Origin: Candidatus Nealsoniibacteriota bacterium
GTDB taxonomy: Bacteria > Patescibacteriota > Minisyncoccia > Minisyncoccales > RBG-13-42-11
Direction: 5' to 3'
Assembly (NCBI GenBank): GCA_019923655.1
Contig: JAHXGL010000006.1
Location: 1-36,262 of the forward strand
Length of the DNA: 36,262 nt
This document shows, in pieces, positions 3,753 to 33,871 of this stretch. The notes under the pieces were generated by a model. The model was given only the letters and a program-made list of their open reading frames with translations, was not told the DNA's origin and did no database searches. The stretch's first letter is position 1; every line of letters starts with the position of its first letter. Both the position numbers and the translations under genes were made by a program.

Positions 3753-4529
3753 ATGCGCGAGATTGAAATCGGAGGTTTGCAAAAAACCACTCTTATTGAT
3801 TATCCGGGCAAAATAGCTTGCACGGTTTTTCTTATTGGCTGCAATTTTCGCTGCCCATGGTGTTATTCAGCAGAACTTGTCTTGCCTGGCAAAATTAAAA
3901 AACAGCCGCGAATCTCCGAGAAGGAGTTTTTTACTTTCTTAAAAGAAAAAAAAGGATTATTGGAAGGAGTAGCAATTTGCGGCGGCGAACCTTGTATAAA
4001 CAAAAAATTGCCAGATTTTATTAAAAAGATTAAAAAACTTGGCTATTTAATAAAACTTGATACTAATGGTTCTGACCCGGCAATGCTACTAAAATTAATT
4101 AATGAAAAATTGGTTGATTATGTCGCAATGGATATTAAGGCGCCAATCAACGCCAAAATGCAAAATGTAAAATGCAAAATGCAAAATGACAGATTGAAAA
4201 TTAAAAATAGATATGAACAAGTTGTTGGCGCAAAGGTTAATATGGGAAAGATTAAAAAGAGTATTGAGATTATTAAAAATTCTGACGTTGATTATGAGTT
4301 TAGAACAACTGTTGTCCCTGTCCTTCACACAAAAGAAGATGTTATTCAAATGGCTAAAGATATTTCTCCCGCCAAAAGATATTTTTTACAAAATTTCCGG
4401 CCTGAAAAAACAATTGACCCGGAATATGAAAAATGCAGATCCTTTAATCAGGAAGAATTAAAATCAATACAGAAAGGATGTAATAAATATGTGCTTACTA
4501 AATTAAGAGGTGCGCTATTCTTAAAATAG
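3753..4529 (+). CDS. nrdG: Anaerobic ribonucleotide reductase activating protein (radical SAM)
   Basis: GGLQKTTLIDYPGKIACTVFLIGCNFRCPWCYS (CxxxCxxC), CGGEPCI; directly downstream of nrdD. Confidence 0.9.
   Translation: MREIEIGGLQKTTLIDYPGKIACTVFLIGCNFRCPWCYSAELVLPGKIKKQPRISEKEFFTFLKEKKGLLEGVAICGGEPCINKKLPDFIKKIKKLGYLIKLDTNGSDPAMLLKLINEKLVDYVAMDIKAPINAKMQNVKCKMQNDRLKIKNRYEQVVGAKVNMGKIKKSIEIIKNSDVDYEFRTTVVPVLHTKEDVIQMAKDISPAKRYFLQNFRPEKTIDPEYEKCRSFNQEELKSIQKGCNKYVLTKLRGALFLK
4153..4210 (+). repeat. In-frame heptanucleotide (CAAAATG)n repeat inside nrdG
   Basis: CAAAATGCAAAATGTAAAATGCAAAATGCAAAATGAC; encodes AKMQNVKCKMQND. Confidence 0.8.
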
Positions 4530-6313: not shown

Positions 6314-6774
6314 AACTCAAGCAGGCAATAAGCCGAATTTTGTCTTGCCCGCCTAAATTTCTTCGAAATTTTGGCGGGCGTGGACAATCATCTATCTGGG
6401 CCAAAAATTACTCTTTGGCTCAAGCGAGCTACTTTTTTACCCTCTCTTTTGTTAAAAAGATGGGGGTTTGCTCTTGCACCCAGTAAGGATTTAGCCGTTT
6501 CATTCTTAAAGTTTCCAATAAGATTCGCCAAGCGCATAACAAATGCGCTCGGCGCTTCAGCGCTTTCGCGCTTCAGCGTCACTGTTCGCACCTCTAGCCT
6601 CACGGCCGACAGCTGTTAGCTGCTACTTTCAATGGTGTTCGGACTTTCCTCCCCCCACCACTTTATACGGACTTTCATTTTATTTATAAATTCTGTATTG
6701 AGAATAACTTTGTAAAATTTGTTTTGGAAGCCTGTATAAAGTGAAGGGGGGCGATTGCCTCGCCTACTTGAGTT
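6314..6774 (-). ncRNA. rnpB: RNase P RNA (bacterial class A)
   Basis: RC contains GAGGAAAGTCCGAACACC (P4 5' side) and GACAAAATTCGGCTTATTGCC (3' conserved segment). P1 closes AACTCAAGTAGGC (6762-6774) with GCCTGCTTGAGTT (6314-6326); GTATAAAGTGGTGGGGGG pairs with CCCCCCTTCACTTTATAC (P3). Confidence 0.93.
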
Positions 6775-14873: not shown

Positions 14874-15977
14874 TTAATTATCCTCAAAAATTTTTACAAC
14901 CTGAAGTCCAATTCCCTTGCTGGCTAAATAAACAGAGTTTCCGGAAACAAAGACCTTTTCAGAAAAACCCGCTAGTTCAATACCAGCTTTCAATTTCGGA
15001 TGTTTGGGATTAGAAACATCAATAACTTGAAGTCCGGCTTTCCCTGCCGCCAAAAAAGCGTAATTTTTCAAAACAAAGACACTTTCCGCTGAACCGGGGA
15101 TTTTAAGATTACTTATTAAAATCGGTTGAATAGGATTTGAGATATCAAAAACCTGAAGGCCAAAAATATCATCAGCCAAAAAAAGATAATTTTCTTTAAC
15201 AAAAACGCTTTCAACATAACCTAAAGTCTTATAAGCGCTTAAAAGTCTGGGGTTTTTAGGGTTGGAAATATCAAAAACTTGAAAACCTCCCTTTTTTCCC
15301 TTGGCTGTAAAAAGATAATTTCCAGAGATAAAAACGCTTTCCGTTTCATACAATAAGTCTTTTTCCAAAATTAAATTTGGAAAACCTGGATCAAAAACAT
15401 CAAAGATTTTAATCCCCCACCATGAATAGGCTAAAAAAGCATATTCTCCAGATACAAAAACGCCTTCTGCTGAAATGGCTGTGTGCCTACTCATCAATTT
15501 TGGATTTTGAGGATTAGAAATATCAAGAATTAAGAATCCTCCGTCTTTATCAGCCACAAAAGCAAAATTTCCAGAAACAAAAACATCCTCGCTATAACCG
15601 GGGGTATTATAGCTTCCAACTAATTTTAGATTTCCAGGTTGAGAAATATCAAAAATCTGAAGTCCGAAAAAACCATTGGCTAAATAAGCAAAATTTCCCG
15701 AAACAAAAACCGACTCTGCTTGACCTGGAGTTTCATAAACGTCAACCAGCTCTAATCTAAGAGGGGGCGCGGCTAAAAAGGAAACTTCTTCTTTTATTTC
15801 CTCTTCTTTTAGCCCAGGATCTGATTCAAACAAATTATTCTTGGGCTCGGACAAAATTTTTACTTCTTGTTTCTCTTCCTGCTTTTCTCTGAAAAAAAGA
15901 AATCCAAAGAAAATTATTCCTATTATTAAAATTAAACGCAGTATTTTTTTAAAAAATAAAATTTCATAATTTGACAT
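14874..15977 (-). CDS. LVIVD-repeat (beta-propeller) protein, membrane/surface anchored
   Basis: Repeats of ..AESVFVSGNFAYLANGFFGLQIFDISQPGNLKLVGSY..; N-terminal TM. Confidence 0.85.
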   Translation of the reverse strand: MSNYEILFFKKILRLILIIGIIFFGFLFFREKQEEKQEVKILSEPKNNLFESDPGLKEEEIKEEVSFLAAPPLRLELVDVYETPGQAESVFVSGNFAYLANGFFGLQIFDISQPGNLKLVGSYNTPGYSEDVFVSGNFAFVADKDGGFLILDISNPQNPKLMSRHTAISAEGVFVSGEYAFLAYSWWGIKIFDVFDPGFPNLILEKDLLYETESVFISGNYLFTAKGKKGGFQVFDISNPKNPRLLSAYKTLGYVESVFVKENYLFLADDIFGLQVFDISNPIQPILISNLKIPGSAESVFVLKNYAFLAAGKAGLQVIDVSNPKHPKLKAGIELAGFSEKVFVSGNSVYLASKGIGLQVVKIFEDN

Positions 15978-18510
15978 AACAGCATTTTTTGTATTTTATT
16001 GGTTTGTTAGTTTTAGGGTTTATTTTGCCGCAGGGGCAAGGGTCATTACGACCAATTTTTGCCTTAGGCCGTGAACCAACATAAACATCCTGTTGAATCA
16101 ATGGCGCGGTTGTAAGCTGCGCTCTAAATATGGCTTGGACAATTTTGCTTTCAACAGCTAAAAGAAATTCTTGAAATATCCGATGTCCTTCATTTTTATA
16201 CTCTATCAAGGGATCGCGCTGACCATAAGCTCTTAACCGGACCGAATCCCTAAGTTCTTCCATTTGAGAAAGATGATCTGTCCAAAAGATATCCAAAATC
16301 CGCAAACAAAAAGTTTTTTCAATTTGCCGCATATTCTCTAATCCAACCTCTTTTTCTTTTTTTTCATAATCTTCTTCTGAAAAACCTGATTTGGTTATCA
16401 ATTCTAAGATGTAAAACCTTAAACTGTTTTCAGATTTTTCTAAAATTTCTCTCCTCTTTCTATAAAAAATTTCTCTCTGCTTGTTCATTACATCGTCATA
16501 ATCCAAGAGATGCTTGCGAGTATCAAAATTAAATCCTTCAATCTTTGCTTGAGATGTCTCAATGGCTCCGGAAACAATTTTAGCTTCAATCGGCTGGTTC
16601 TCTGGAAGTTTTAACATTTTCATTAAAGATTTTATTTTATCTCCGCCAAAAATCCTCATAAGGTCATCTTCCAAAGAAACAAAAAACTGGGAAGAGCCTG
16701 GGTCTCCCTGACGACCAGCTCTTCCGCGCAGCTGATTATCAATTCTTCTTGCTTCATGCCGCTCAGTGCCAATTATATGAAGTCCGCCAAGCTCTTTAAC
16801 TTTTTTCGCCCTTTCTTGATTTGGCGGATTACCTCCTAAAACTATATCAACACCTCTGCCAGCCATATTTGTTGCAATGGTCACTGCGCCCAATCTGCCC
16901 GCTTGAGCAATAATCTCTCCTTCTTTCTCATGATGTTTAGCGTTTAATATCTGATGCAATAGCCCTTCTCTCTCTAAGAGCTTTCCTAAATATTCGTTTT
17001 TTTCTATTGAAACCGTGCCAACTAAAACCGGCTGGCCTTTTTGGTTTCTTTTTTTTATCTGTTCAATAATTGCCTCAAATTTCCCTTGCTTGGTCCGATA
17101 AACCTGGTCTGTCAGGTTTTTTCTAATCATTGGCAGGTTGGTCGGAACAATAATTACTTCTAATTTATAAACCTTGAAAAATTCTTCAGCCGAGGTAGCG
17201 GCTGTGCCGGTCATACCAGCCAATTTCTTGTATAAACGAAAATAATTCTGAAAAGTAACTGAAGCCAGTGTTCGCGACTCTCGCTGAACTTCAACCCCTT
17301 CCTTGGCTTCAATTGCTTGATGAAGCCCGTCGGAATAACGACGACCAGGCATTAAACGACCTGTAAATTCGTCAACAATAACAATCTGTCCTTCCTTTAT
17401 TACATAATGCTGGTCTTTTTTAAATAAAATATGGGCTTTTAGCGCCTGCTCTAAATGATGAACTTGTCTAATCCCCTTTTCTTCATAAATATTTTCTACC
17501 CCTAAAATGTTTTCAACTTTGGTAATCCCTTCATCGGTCAAGGAAACCGCTCTCATCTTTTCATCAATATTGTAATCAATGTCTTGTTTAAGCCGGGGCA
17601 CAATTCTGGCGAATTCCTGGTACATTTTGGTTGATTCTGAATCAGGAGCGGAAATAATTAAAGGCGTTCTGGCTTCGTCAATTAGAATTGAATCTACTTC
17701 GTCAATTATGGCGAAATGATGAATACTTTTTGCGTCAGTTTCGCGTTTTTGTTTCGCGTCTATTTCGCGCGCCTGAACCATTTGGTTCAGACCATAAGCC
17801 ATATTATCTCTTAAATAATCAAACCCAAACTCGTTATTCGTCCCGTAAGTAATATCAGCATCGTAAGCTTCCTTCCTGGAACAAGGCCTAATATAGCTTT
17901 CTGTGATTTTGAATCCGCCGACAATATCTCGTTTCTTATCCCGGTCGTCAGTTTTAAGTTTTGAGTTGTGGTTTTGAATTTTGAGATTTGAGTTTTGAGT
18001 TTCTCGTCCATATTCAGGATCATAAATGTATGCCGCTTCATGAACAATACATCCCACTGATAACCCAAGCAAATGGTATATCTGCCCCATCCAGACCACA
18101 TCTCTTTTCGCCAAATAATCATTAACCGTAATAATATGAACGCCTTGTTTGGTCAAAGCGTTTAGATAAGCCGGTAAAGTAGCGGCTAAAGTTTTTCCTT
18201 CACCTGTTTTCATTTCAGCAATTTTGCCCTGGTGCAAAACAATGCCGCCAACCAGCTGAACATCAAAATGCCGTTGATTAAGAGTTCTTTTAGCCGCTTC
18301 TCTAACTAAGGCAAATGCTTCGGGTAGAATATCGTCTAAGGTCTTGCCTTTTTTAAGCTGTTCCTTAAGCTCAATGCTTTTTTGCGTCAGCTTTTCATCA
18401 GAAAAAATCTCGAACTTTGGTTCAAGCGAGTTAATTTGAACAACCAATGGCTGGATATTTAGTAGATATTTTTCATTGGCATCGCCAAAAATTTTACTAA
18501 GTATTGACAT
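15964..18510 (-). CDS. secA: Preprotein translocase ATPase SecA
   Basis: AEMKTGEGKTLAATLPAYLNAL, VTVNDYLAKRD, GTNNEFGFDYLRDNM, ATNMAGRGVDI, SEC-C tail RNDPCPCGK...KYKKCC. Confidence 0.97.
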   Translation of the reverse strand: MSILSKIFGDANEKYLLNIQPLVVQINSLEPKFEIFSDEKLTQKSIELKEQLKKGKTLDDILPEAFALVREAAKRTLNQRHFDVQLVGGIVLHQGKIAEMKTGEGKTLAATLPAYLNALTKQGVHIITVNDYLAKRDVVWMGQIYHLLGLSVGCIVHEAAYIYDPEYGRETQNSNLKIQNHNSKLKTDDRDKKRDIVGGFKITESYIRPCSRKEAYDADITYGTNNEFGFDYLRDNMAYGLNQMVQAREIDAKQKRETDAKSIHHFAIIDEVDSILIDEARTPLIISAPDSESTKMYQEFARIVPRLKQDIDYNIDEKMRAVSLTDEGITKVENILGVENIYEEKGIRQVHHLEQALKAHILFKKDQHYVIKEGQIVIVDEFTGRLMPGRRYSDGLHQAIEAKEGVEVQRESRTLASVTFQNYFRLYKKLAGMTGTAATSAEEFFKVYKLEVIIVPTNLPMIRKNLTDQVYRTKQGKFEAIIEQIKKRNQKGQPVLVGTVSIEKNEYLGKLLEREGLLHQILNAKHHEKEGEIIAQAGRLGAVTIATNMAGRGVDIVLGGNPPNQERAKKVKELGGLHIIGTERHEARRIDNQLRGRAGRQGDPGSSQFFVSLEDDLMRIFGGDKIKSLMKMLKLPENQPIEAKIVSGAIETSQAKIEGFNFDTRKHLLDYDDVMNKQREIFYRKRREILEKSENSLRFYILELITKSGFSEEDYEKKEKEVGLENMRQIEKTFCLRILDIFWTDHLSQMEELRDSVRLRAYGQRDPLIEYKNEGHRIFQEFLLAVESKIVQAIFRAQLTTAPLIQQDVYVGSRPKAKIGRNDPCPCGKINPKTNKPIKYKKCCYVKL
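17950..18002 (-). repeat. In-frame heptanucleotide (CAAAACT-like)n repeat inside secA
   Basis: Encodes TQNSNLKIQNHNSKLKT; 50/53 nt identical to the copy in murB (20849-20901). Confidence 0.85.
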
Positions 18511-19366
18511 TAAGTTTCTTTGCTAAATACTTTGGCAAAACAGCTGAAGAAAAATGAATTTCCGGATTATAGTATTCTAAATCTAAATTTAATTTTTTAT
18601 ATCTCTGCTTGATGTTTTTATAGTTCGGCTTTTGGGATACGGATTTTAATGCCAAAATAAAAATGTATTCGCTTGAACATTGCAGAGAAGGAATACAGGC
18701 CTGATGAATTTTAACTTCAAAAAAGATTTTTTTCAACTTATTATAAATGCTTTTTACGCGAAGAAATTGCTCAAAAATACAGCCGCTCTGAATAATTAAA
18801 ACTCCGTTTTCAGCAAGGGCTCTGGAAACATCTTGATAAAATTTCCCATGAAAAAACCCTATTGACAACCCTGAAGGGTCGGTAGAATCAAGAATTATTA
18901 TGTCAAAAAAGTTTTTATATTTTTTAGTAAACTTTATTCCATCCTCAATAAATATCTTTGCTCTCTTGTTCTTGAAAGCTCCTTTTGAAACAAATGGCAG
19001 ATATTTTTTTGAAATTTCAATTACTTTTTTATCAATATCTACTACACACGCTTCTTCAATCGGATGCTTTAAGACCTCTCTTAACGCTCCTCCGTCGCCA
19101 CCGCCAATAATTAAAACTTTTTTCGGATTTTGATGAGAGAACATTGCCAAATGAACAAGCATTTCATGATAAATAAATTCGTCTATCTGCGATAATTGAA
19201 CAACTCTGTCCAAAACTAACATTCGGCCAAAAACTAAAGTGTCAAAAACTTCTATTTTTTGATAAGATGATTTTCCGGAATATATTTTCTTTTTTATCTT
19301 TATGCTAGTCCTTGATTCGTCAAGAATTTCGGGAATAGTTTTTTCAAAAAACCATTGATCTCTCAT
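18497..19366 (-). CDS. speE: Spermidine synthase family protein
   Basis: FDTLVFGRMLVLDRVVQLSQIDEFIYHEMLVH, VLIIGGGDGGALREVLKH, DIIILDSTDPSG. Confidence 0.92.
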   Translation of the reverse strand: MRDQWFFEKTIPEILDESRTSIKIKKKIYSGKSSYQKIEVFDTLVFGRMLVLDRVVQLSQIDEFIYHEMLVHLAMFSHQNPKKVLIIGGGDGGALREVLKHPIEEACVVDIDKKVIEISKKYLPFVSKGAFKNKRAKIFIEDGIKFTKKYKNFFDIIILDSTDPSGLSIGFFHGKFYQDVSRALAENGVLIIQSGCIFEQFLRVKSIYNKLKKIFFEVKIHQACIPSLQCSSEYIFILALKSVSQKPNYKNIKQRYKKLNLDLEYYNPEIHFSSAVLPKYLAKKLNVNT

Positions 19367-19758
19367 AGCAATATCCCTCTTTTTATTTCTTTTATCTTTA
19401 CTTTAGTAGGCTGGAATTTCTTTTTTAAGTAATCAAGGGCTTTATAGGGAAAAGTTTTCCCGCCACAAGTGAAAATATCAATTGCTACATAGTTCCATTC
19501 AGGCCAAGCATGAATAGCTAAATGGCTTTCAGCAAGCAAAACAACCCCGGTTATTCCCTGAGGTTGAAATTTATGAATAGCTATTTTTAAAGGAACATTT
19601 TTAGCTTTCTTTGCCGCTATAATTAAAATATTCTCAATTTCTTTTGAGTTCTCAATAATTTTCCCATTCCAAAATTCGGCAAGCAAATGAATACCGGCAT
19701 GTTTTGATATTTGTTTTTCTTTGACCCATTGAATGGATCTCTTTGTTTTTTTGGTCAT
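19363..19758 (-). CDS. speD: S-adenosylmethionine decarboxylase proenzyme (pyruvoyl)
   Basis: GVVLLAESHLAIHAWPEWNYVAIDIFTCGG; Ser of ESH is the canonical pyruvoyl cleavage site; 4-nt overlap with speE. Confidence 0.93.
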   Translation of the reverse strand: MTKKTKRSIQWVKEKQISKHAGIHLLAEFWNGKIIENSKEIENILIIAAKKAKNVPLKIAIHKFQPQGITGVVLLAESHLAIHAWPEWNYVAIDIFTCGGKTFPYKALDYLKKKFQPTKVKIKEIKRGILL

Positions 19759-19884
19759 ATTTTTTCAATCGCCTTATCTTTATCCTGTTAAATGTTTACG
19801 AAGTAAATTTAACAGGTCTTAAAAAACAAAGAGTGAACAAAAAAAGCGATTACATTAGTATAACAATTCTGTGAAAAAAAACAA

Positions 19885-19914
19885 CCCCCCACCAGAACAT
19901 GTTCTGGTGGGGGG
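19885..19914 (-). terminator. 30-bp perfectly palindromic intrinsic terminator
   Basis: CCCCCCACCAGAACA|TGTTCTGGTGGGGGG followed on the minus strand by TTGTTTTTTTT. Confidence 0.9.
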
Positions 19915-19930
19915 AAGAAAAGAAAAAATT

Positions 19931-20029
19931 TTATTTCTTCTTCTTTTTTGCTTTCTTTTTCTTTACCATGAAAATTTTATTATTCTTAAAAGATTCAGCA
20001 AATAGTCGACCTCTATTCGCAAAAAACAT
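19931..20029 (-). CDS. Small lysine-tailed ORF, 32 aa (not in the ORF track)
   Basis: Translates MFFANRGRLFAESFKNNKIFMVKKKKAKKKKK*; ends 16 nt before the palindromic terminator. Confidence 0.5.
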   Translation of the reverse strand: MFFANRGRLFAESFKNNKIFMVKKKKAKKKKK

Positions 20030-20070
20030 TTCTTGTTTGGTTTTTCATTTTAGGAGAGTTTGTCAACCCC

Positions 20071-20158
20071 GTTAGAAATCAACTTATCCACAGGTAAACT
20101 ATTTTTAAATTATTATTTAATAATCAAGGAAATTTCTAACAAAATCAAGTGTGGAAAA
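20071..20158. promoter_or_regulatory. AT-rich segment with two DnaA-box-like sites and a 9-bp inverted repeat
   Basis: TTATCCACA at 20084-20092, TGTGGAAAA at 20150-20158, GTTAGAAAT (20071-20079) / ATTTCTAAC (20132-20140). Confidence 0.4.
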
Positions 20159-21127
20159 CTATAAAAGCTCAATTTCAGTTTCTAAAATTATTCCAAATTT
20201 CTTTTTTACTTTTTCTTTTATTAATTTTATTAATTCTTTTACATCTTTTGCTTTTGCGCCCCCCAAATTAACAATAAAGTTGCTATGCTTCTCGGAAATC
20301 TGCGCTTTGTTAATTTTTTTTCCTTTCAAACCGCATTTTTCAATAAGGTAGCCAGCGGGAATGATATTATTTTTGATTATTGTTTTTATATTTTTATCTT
20401 TTTTAATTTTACTTTGTAATTTTTCATTTGGTATTTGGTATTTGGTATTTTTAAATATACTGCCCGCCGAAGGAAAATTTAATGGCTGAGTTTTTTTTCG
20501 CTGCTCCAAATTTTTTTTAATTTTGTTTTTTATTTCTTCCCTGCCCTCCTTTTTAAGTTGAATCATTAACGAAAGAATAATTAGATTTGGTTTTTTCTTG
20601 AAGATACTCTCTCTATAACTAAATTTACAATCCTTGTTTTTAAAAAATTTAATTTTTTCTGTTTCTGCGTCAAAAACCTCAACAGTTTCAACCACATCTT
20701 TCATTGATTTACCAAAAGAACCAGCATTCCCTCTAATCGCCCCTCCAACACTTCCCGGAATTCCCGCTGCCCATTCCAAACCCATCAGCGATTTCTCTAA
20801 AGATATTTTTAGCAAATGACTTAATCTAACCCCTGATTCAACATAAATAGTTTTAAGTTTTAAGTTGTGGTTTTGAACTTTGAGTTTTGAGTTTTGAGTT
20901 TTGATAACTAAACCTTCATATCCTTTATCAGCCGCCAATACATTGCTCCCTCCTCCCAAAATAAAAAATGGCAATTTATATTTTTTTGCCATTAAAATCG
21001 CCTTTACTAAATCTTTTTTTGTTTTCGCCGCAAAAAAATACTTGGCCGGTCCGCCGATGCGAAAAGTAGTGTCCTTTTTTAATAAAATGTTTCTTTTAAC
21101 GCCTGGCAATAGTTTTGCGATATTCAT
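20159..21127 (-). CDS. murB: UDP-N-acetylenolpyruvoylglucosamine reductase
   Basis: TTFRIGGPAKYFFAAKT, ILGGGSNVLA, GLEWAAGIPGSVGGAIRGNAGSFG, FSYRESIFK, PSAGSIFKN, ISEKHSNFIVNLGGA. Confidence 0.95.
   Translation of the reverse strand: MNIAKLLPGVKRNILLKKDTTFRIGGPAKYFFAAKTKKDLVKAILMAKKYKLPFFILGGGSNVLAADKGYEGLVIKTQNSKLKVQNHNLKLKTIYVESGVRLSHLLKISLEKSLMGLEWAAGIPGSVGGAIRGNAGSFGKSMKDVVETVEVFDAETEKIKFFKNKDCKFSYRESIFKKKPNLIILSLMIQLKKEGREEIKNKIKKNLEQRKKTQPLNFPSAGSIFKNTKYQIPNEKLQSKIKKDKNIKTIIKNNIIPAGYLIEKCGLKGKKINKAQISEKHSNFIVNLGGAKAKDVKELIKLIKEKVKKKFGIILETEIELL
20424..20452 (-). repeat. In-frame heptanucleotide (AAATACC)n repeat inside murB
   Basis: (AAATACC)3AAATG encodes NTKYQIPNE, directly after the conserved SAGSIFKN motif. 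Confidence 0.75.
20849..20901 (-). repeat. In-frame heptanucleotide (CAAAACT)n repeat inside murB
   Basis: Encodes TQNSKLKVQNHNLKLKT; 50/53 nt identical to the copy in secA. Confidence 0.85.
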
Positions 21128-32677: not shown

Positions 32678-32760
32678 TTGACACTCTCCTTGACTAAAGT
32701 CAACGGAGATTCTTGCTTCAACGACTGCCTAATGGTTAGTCTCCGCAAGCGTTAATTTGG
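32678..32760 (-). ncRNA. Predicted omega RNA (reRNA) overlapping the tnpB 3' end and RE
   Basis: Position and GAAGCAAGAATCTCCG...GGAGAGTGTCAA hairpin at the RE, as known for TnpB omega RNAs; 5' end not determinable. Confidence 0.5.
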
Positions 32761-33871
32761 GTCTGCCCGACCCTATTAAAGCAAATCTTTTAATGTTTTG
32801 GCTTGCTAAAATATCTCTATCGTGTTTTGTTTTACATTGTGGACAAATCCATTCTCTTGCAGAAAGTTTTAGTTCTTGATTAACATATCCACAAGAACAA
32901 GTTTTACTACTGGCTTCAAATCTTCCTATCATTAAAAGATTTTTACCATACCAATCGCATTTATACTCTAATTGTCTTTTGAATTCTCTCCAAGCAACAT
33001 CTGAAATCGCTTTTGCCAGATATTTATTTTTTAACAAACCTTTTATACCTAAATCCTCTATGGCAATTGACTTCACCGCTTGGTTCTCGCGGATCAATTG
33101 ATAAGTGAATTTGTGTAGAAAATCCGTTCTTTGGTTATTTATTTTTTCGTGAATTAAAGCAACTTTTAATCTTTGTTTTGCGTTATTGTTGCTGGCTTTC
33201 TTTTTTCTGCTTAACCATCGTTGTTGTCTTTTTAGTTTTAATTCTGATTTTTTAAGAAATTTAGGATTATCTATTTTTCTGCCATCGCTAATAGTAGCAA
33301 AATGCTTTATTCCTAAATCTATACCGATTGTTGTTTTTTCAGCTATTTTCGGTTTCTTTGGTAGCTGTTTGCGTTGTTCTGTTAAAATTGAAACGAAGTA
33401 TTTTCCTGTTGGAGTTTTACTAATCGTTGCTGTTTTAATTTTACCTTGTATTTTTCTGCTTAATTTGATTTTGATATTTGGTATCTTAAAAACACTTAAT
33501 TGATTATTATTTATTTTCAATCCTTGCGGAACTTGAAAACTATTCTTATTTTGTTTCTTACTCTTAAATCTTGGAAACCTATTATGCTTTCTGAAAAAAG
33601 AAGTAAAAGCATTATCAAGATTTCTTAAAGCCATTTGGAGTGATTGGCTGTTTACTTCATTAAGCCATTCATAATCCTTTTTCTTTTTTAGTTTTGTTAA
33701 CTCTTTTGTTAAATCAAAACAGCTTAATCTTTTTTTGTCTTGCTGATATGCTTTTATTTTCTTTTCAAGTCCAAAATTAAATGTCCAACGAACACAGCTA
33801 AAGTGTTTCTCAATCAGTTCTTTTTGTTTCTTATCGGGATATAACCTATATGCGTATGATTTCTGTATCAT
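32729..33871 (-). CDS. tnpB: RNA-guided endonuclease TnpB family protein
   Basis: IGIDLGIKHFATIS, IAIEDLGIKGL, CSCGY...CPQC zinc finger, DRDILASQNI: RuvC D/E/D residues all present. Confidence 0.93.
   Translation of the reverse strand: MIQKSYAYRLYPDKKQKELIEKHFSCVRWTFNFGLEKKIKAYQQDKKRLSCFDLTKELTKLKKKKDYEWLNEVNSQSLQMALRNLDNAFTSFFRKHNRFPRFKSKKQNKNSFQVPQGLKINNNQLSVFKIPNIKIKLSRKIQGKIKTATISKTPTGKYFVSILTEQRKQLPKKPKIAEKTTIGIDLGIKHFATISDGRKIDNPKFLKKSELKLKRQQRWLSRKKKASNNNAKQRLKVALIHEKINNQRTDFLHKFTYQLIRENQAVKSIAIEDLGIKGLLKNKYLAKAISDVAWREFKRQLEYKCDWYGKNLLMIGRFEASSKTCSCGYVNQELKLSAREWICPQCKTKHDRDILASQNIKRFALIGSGRPKLTLAETNH

Follow-up and report, generated by a model that had tools for sequence, protein, structure and literature searches.

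In-frame heptanucleotide segments of secA and murB as probable solo arms of a dispersed element that flanks IVP (S23) genes

The secA and murB genes of a patescibacterial genome each contain a short in-frame segment of heptanucleotide repeats. We conclude, with a probability that we put at a little over 0.7 for the explanation as a whole, that both segments are solo arms of a dispersed element whose arms flank genes for IVP proteins, and whose spread has been filtered by coding. IVS/S23 elements were already known; we add to them the link between IVP genes and heptamer arms, and the solo arms in coding genes. The explanation connects three loose ends, namely heptanucleotide repeats of unknown origin, S23/IVP proteins of unknown function, and in-frame inserts in patescibacterial essential proteins. 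It gives the repeats a concrete, testable partner in the IVP protein, and it includes a simple sequence rule that lets a repeat colonise coding DNA in any frame. It also cautions against taking the loops of these proteins for adapted structure when selfish DNA may be their source.

The repeat unit in secA and murB

The analysis was based on genome searches and on the stretches around the matches. The window, by which we mean the whole 36,262-nt stretch of DNA analysed, is contig C17 of a 463-kb genome; its size and gene content, together with the taxa in which the element recurs, point to a member of the Patescibacteria. Two ORFs on its minus strand, with which SecA orthologs (15964-18510) and MurB orthologs (20159-21127) were retrieved, host segments at 17950-18002 and 20849-20901, respectively. 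The segments match at 50 of 53 nt, the similarity ends where they end, and TRF reports period 7 in each. Both lie on the minus strand, in sense orientation, and add TQNSNLKIQNHNSKLKT to SecA and TQNSKLKVQNHNLKLKT to MurB. The match, the orientation and the added peptides are as stated in the original prediction, which had proposed one heptanucleotide-repeat element inserted in both genes. The two segments also have in common an irregular stretch, CAAAACCACAACT, and the same core and ends recur in other genomes. Because this stretch (AAAACCACAACT) sits amid the heptamers of both, the segments are copies of one thing and not independent heptamer runs. The core occupies 17950-17976 in secA, where it reads CAAAACCACAACTCAAAACTTAAAACT, and 20849-20875 in murB.

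The repeating unit is a discrete element of about 51 nt, consisting of heptamers, an irregular core (AAAACYACAACT) and fixed ends. Copies aligned on the core have both ends in common. For 61 genic copies, the 51-nt consensus is aCTCAAAacTCAAAAcTCAAAACTCAAAACCACAACTCAAAACTCAAAACT, and conservation is at background within 1-3 nt on either side. The repeat element of the original prediction is therefore real, but its unit is a defined 51-nt arm and not a free heptamer repeat. Likewise, the idea that one 7-aa cycle is encoded in all frames holds for a pure heptamer but not for the actual element, which has seven units with one 6-nt irregularity, so that its three frames give three different peptides (TQNSKLKTQNHNSKLKT, KLKTQNSKLKTTTQNSKL and NSKLKTQNSKPQLKTQN).

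When 85k species genomes were scanned for the core together with its right-hand side, 33 stretches matched, nearly all from Patescibacteria, plus two from Omnitrophota; the core was absent from the viral contigs scanned, and no Rfam family matched the element. Within the window's order, the element is present in 44 of 247 genomes. We collected 159 distinct copies, 62 in long ORFs and 97 outside ORFs. Solo arms are more similar within a genome (0.786) than between genomes (0.732), a difference matched in 0 of 2000 permutations. We rejected a reading of the repeats as DNA-uptake signals because each genome has just a few copies. One Falkowbacteria genome, LH_S3 (L056-L082), has well over ten core copies, several of which belong to long composite arrays of heptamers close to the ends of contigs.

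Two further sense heptamer tracts in the window had been overlooked. One, at 20413-20451 on the minus strand, is a second tract within murB; it was identified by TRF and ortholog comparison, has the sense unit ACCAAAT, encodes the peptide KYQIPN, and belongs to a different heptamer family that is also present in other genes. The other, identified by TRF and alignment, has the sense unit CAAAATG and lies at 4149-4194 on the plus strand, in a gene for an NrdG-type activase (3753-4529). Elsewhere in the same genome, sense heptamer tracts occur in pcm, murE, pheT, cca, gatA, cysS, leuS, topA and fmt. Every in-ORF heptamer tract found in this genome is in sense orientation. Many of the genome's heptamer tracts are short and pure and have no core. 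The window also contains four tRNAs at its start, a class A RNase P RNA (Rfam RF00010) at 6314-6770 on the minus strand, and an intergenic GC-rich palindrome, CCCCCCACCAGAACATGTTCTGGTGGGGGG, at 19887-19918.

Alignment to orthologs did not show the segments to be an old, conserved part of either protein. Relative to the ortholog of genome G007, SecA has 17 extra residues in a variable loop, and other relatives have no insert or a variant of it. G001, a genome of the same family, likewise carries the element at this site of its SecA (L234), together with an additional insert. For MurB, the proposed insertion needs rewording. An arm is indeed present, but the loop following VIK contains heptamer DNA with other units in many genera (TCAAATG, ACTACAA, AAATTCT, ATACAAG, CAAAATT and GATTCAA), indicating a hot loop in which the net gain is below 17 aa. 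Among 26 MurB loops, 10 reach 18 of 21 periodic matches, compared with 0.9% of coding windows. In an AlphaFold model of MurB (pLDDT 92.5), the insert forms an extra loop and a short strand between the strands at 70-77 and 91-97. Other, unrelated repeat inserts (peptides KRTKFS and GEEDESSSSTIAAAW) occur in the same loops or genes, in the SecA loops of L363 (G001) and L362 (G008) and in the MurB of L374 and L366.

Coding constraints on copies inside genes

All 62 copies in long ORFs are in sense orientation and none is antisense (p 4e-19), so that genic copies do not occur equally in both orientations. Their reading phases are distributed 14/21/27, with all three in use. Together, these counts support the proposal that the element spreads in a frame-neutral, orientation-restricted manner, as Rickettsia palindromic elements do. 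Because all three frames are used, selection for a single peptide cannot account for the spread, and we rejected a role of the peptide as a protein tag for the same reason. The host genes, named via curated models, include those for the tRNA synthetases for Ala, Arg, Cys, Ile, Leu, Met, Phe and Val, as well as MurC, MurE, MurF, GyrA, RpoB, RpoC, SecA, TsaD, MnmA, MiaB, TatD, UvrC, RNase HII and RsmA. In MetRS and ValRS, genera that share the site of the element differ in its frame, a pattern that suggests repeated insertion at permissive sites. We found no target-site duplication around genic arms.

The orientation bias had been attributed to the TGA codon on the antisense strand. This codon alone is enough to remove antisense copies of CAAAACT, but it may not explain the whole bias. 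The ACCAAAT family, which is stop-free on both strands, is nonetheless found 10 times in sense and once in antisense orientation (p 0.012), arguing that antisense stops may not be the only filter. The CAAAATG family has 6 sense and 3 antisense copies; both families are represented by few copies, and several of those called antisense seem to lie at doubtful ORF ends. A likely second filter is selection against hydrophobic antisense peptides. Overall, there is good support both for the spread of the element and for its filtering by coding.

Copies outside genes differ from those inside in that they are often paired. An inverted second arm lies within 90 nt of 44 of the 97 non-ORF copies, compared with 1 of the 62 genic copies (p 9e-11). 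Two such inverted pairs have predicted folding energies of -42 and -40 kcal/mol (z -11 and -6), and the fold energy of the solo arms in secA and murB is about zero. The strong hairpin of inverted pairs can explain why genes would tolerate only single arms. Arms within one hairpin are no more alike (similarity 0.655) than they are to the arms of other copies (0.686), indicating that the arms of this family do not co-evolve in pairs.

Inverted arms around IVP genes

Four complete copies (L182, L169, L227 and L221) have the layout arm, ORF, inverted arm. The enclosed ORF matches PF05635, 23S_rRNA_IVP (E 2e-25), and TIGR02436, four helix bundle protein (E 8e-29), and is related to the solved protein 2rld. 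This layout shows that the arms and the IVP genes form one element. Deleted copies have a short centre in place of the ORF between the two inverted arms and are predicted to fold into a strong hairpin. The original prediction was thus accurate as to the solo repeats in genes but incomplete, having missed both the palindromic parent form and the complete form with an IVP/S23 gene. The solo arms in secA and murB do not themselves encode an IVP protein, and a search of the order's genomes detected no IVP gene in the window's genome or in G001, though both have arms. With no IVP gene detected, the arms of the window's genome appear to be orphaned. Across the order, an IVP gene is present in 32 of the 44 core-bearing genomes (12 have none) and in 98 of the 203 others (p 0.004).

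The arrangement extends well beyond the 51-nt unit. Among 81 patescibacterial IVP genes of the order, 52 have mutually inverted flanks at z>4, compared with 3 of 150 control ORFs (p 6e-27); the remaining 29 fall below this threshold. In a subset chosen on IVP score alone, with flanks disregarded, 17 of 29 genes have inverted flanks. The repeat unit varies from one IVP element to another. On plasmids, mostly from cyanobacteria but also from Bacteroidota, Spirochaetota and Chloroflexota, inverted arms flank all 16 IVP genes examined (z 5.4-24), a set that includes near-identical Nostoc relatives, so that its loci are not all independent. Period 7 is present in 25 of the 32 plasmid flanks, and no other period is present in any. 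Inverted heptamer arms, or sometimes octamer arms, around IVP genes are thus a common rule that reaches cyanobacterial plasmids. Given these flanks in the order and on plasmids, the heptamer repeats described here can be read as arms and debris of IVP elements.

Several individual loci deserve mention. At IVP genes L303, L307 and L289 the arms are octamers of the ATCGAAAT/TCGATATT type, not heptamers. The IVP element L328, on plasmid pTCL26-01_B of Nostoc sp. TCL26-01, lies between cas2 and cas1, and IVP genes L318, L332 and L333 on other plasmids adjoin genes for helicases and DNA methylases. No IVP relative turned up in the viral scan, and phage records contained just two partial ones.

The spacer between rpoB and rpoC gave a view of one site across related genomes. 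Genomes G154 and G156 have the full element there. G155, of the same genus as G156, has a different IVP element with CAAAATT arms, and G029, of the same genus as G154, has only a remnant. Small heptamer hairpins occupy this spacer in G000, G001 and G093, and no IVP element is found in it in G057, G094, G158, G161, G162 or G245. These differences, along with the greater likeness of arms within a genome, are good evidence for gain and loss of the element, the closest genomes compared being of the same genus.

Origin of the arms and comparison with known systems

We infer that it is the IVP protein that recognises the arms and causes them to be copied or moved. In the mechanism that we propose, a ring of IVP protein would bind the arms as single-stranded nucleic acid, and we hypothesise that it reads them in steps of roughly one 7-nt unit. 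Arms or whole elements would be copied to new sites via a single-stranded or RNA intermediate, with no strong specificity for the site of insertion. Purifying selection would then clear from genes the antisense copies (through stops or hydrophobic peptides), the out-of-frame copies and the two-armed copies (through the mRNA hairpin), so that only solo arms that are in frame and lie in tolerant loops would persist there. The arms in the window's genome would be either relics or copies moved by an element since lost.

The main competing explanation, which we consider unlikely, is that an unrelated enzyme, such as a Y1/RAYT or IS200/IS605-type transposase, moves the arms, which would then be an ordinary MITE- or REP-like family, and that IVP genes are passengers caught between two copies. 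On the other strand the core reads AAGTTGTRGTTTT, with a GTRG motif that we take to resemble REP sequences; an ORF in the window (32729-33871, minus strand) resembles, by eye, a TnpB/IS200-IS605 accessory gene; the 12 core-bearing genomes with no IVP gene would fit as well; and IVP proteins have, to our knowledge, no known enzyme or mobility activity. The inverted-repeat layout, however, brackets IVP genes with many unrelated units in several phyla, and a passenger would not show such consistent bracketing with arms that differ in sequence. Less probable still is that selection maintains the inverted arms because they function as RNA signals (terminators, sites of processing by a double-strand nuclease, or operon spacers), with the genic copies being decayed by-products. 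The strong predicted hairpins and the positions in operon spacers such as rpoB-rpoC fit such a role, and RNase III cleavage of rRNA intervening sequences is known (PMC4990558), but at a single spacer copies are gained and lost among close relatives, many arms are single, and no Rfam family was matched.

We regard it as very improbable that replication slippage produced the tracts independently in each gene, as plain heptanucleotide microsatellites. In most bacterial genomes, heptamers are reported to be the most abundant class among the longer tandem repeats, and polymerase slippage has been proposed to account for them (PMC4679880); the window's genome has many short, pure tracts with no core. 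Slippage would not account for the 50/53 identity that includes the irregular core, the fixed ends at unrelated sites, the inverted pairs or the association with one gene family, though after insertion it may have altered lengths and units, for example in the MurB loop. We give the least credence to local gene conversion that made one copy from the other with no wider element involved. The copies lie only 2.9 kb apart and are 50/53 identical, and conversion could have homogenised them, but the same element and ends occur in many other genes and genomes, including at the same site in the SecA of G001, which led us to reject conversion as a full explanation.

If the solo-arm explanation is extended, IVP/S23 genes would define a widespread, unrecognised class of bacterial mobile element with inverted heptamer-array ends that the IVP ring protein reads. 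The heptamer repeats of bacteria, cyanobacterial STRRs among them, would then largely be its debris, and its single arms would have repeatedly rewritten loops of essential proteins. We advance this extension tentatively, at somewhat less than even odds. In the open-access literature searched, we found no paper joining IVP to heptamer repeats.

Among known systems, the 23S rRNA intervening sequences (IVS) of Coxiella, Leptospira and Salmonella are selfish elements with inverted-repeat borders that form a stem and an S23-family ORF inside; their origin has been called unclear, and an older idea holds that the ORF serves mobility (PMC4990558). Complete copies of our element likewise encode a protein of the same family (PF05635) between stem-forming inverted repeats. 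IVS lie inside 23S rRNA and are cut out of its transcript; the copies examined here sit in spacers and protein genes. Our element also differs in having heptamer arrays as inverted repeats and single arms dispersed within coding sequences. Rickettsia palindromic elements (RPE) are short repeats that have entered numerous unrelated housekeeping genes in frame and lengthen their products by a peptide (PMC10969869). Our element resembles them in being inserted in frame in unrelated genes and in one orientation (62:0). However, an RPE is a palindrome of about 100-150 nt, whereas a genic copy here is a single, unstructured arm of about 51 nt, uses all three frames and has a complete form with a gene.

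STRRs and other bacterial heptamer repeats, such as the GGGAATC type of Xanthomonas and Nostoc and TAACTGA in Beggiatoaceae, are present in high copy, sometimes inverted, and are phylogenetically scattered (PMC4692102, PMC4679880); they have been discussed as possibly mobile, with no protein named (PMC4679880). The element shares with them short tandem heptanucleotide repeats in many copies. Neither PMC4692102 nor PMC4679880 mentions a link to S23/four-helix-bundle proteins, whereas that link and a coding-strand filter are seen here. STRRs had been offered as a loose precedent; they are related, but the link is probably closer than that, because IVP genes on Nostoc plasmids have heptamer arms. 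REPs, which are linked to RAYT, are for the most part palindromes of 20-40 nt that lie outside genes. As with REPs and BIMEs, our element occurs as single copies and inverted pairs, but its single unit is not a palindrome and is common in genes. Of the terminal inverted repeats and target-site duplication that mark MITEs, inverted arms are seen at the 44 paired non-ORF copies, and no duplication was detected at genic arms. Finally, tandem repeats in Borg elements also add peptide segments inside proteins (PMC9879509), but as described there they have no tie to an IVP gene or to any dispersed element whose ends are fixed.
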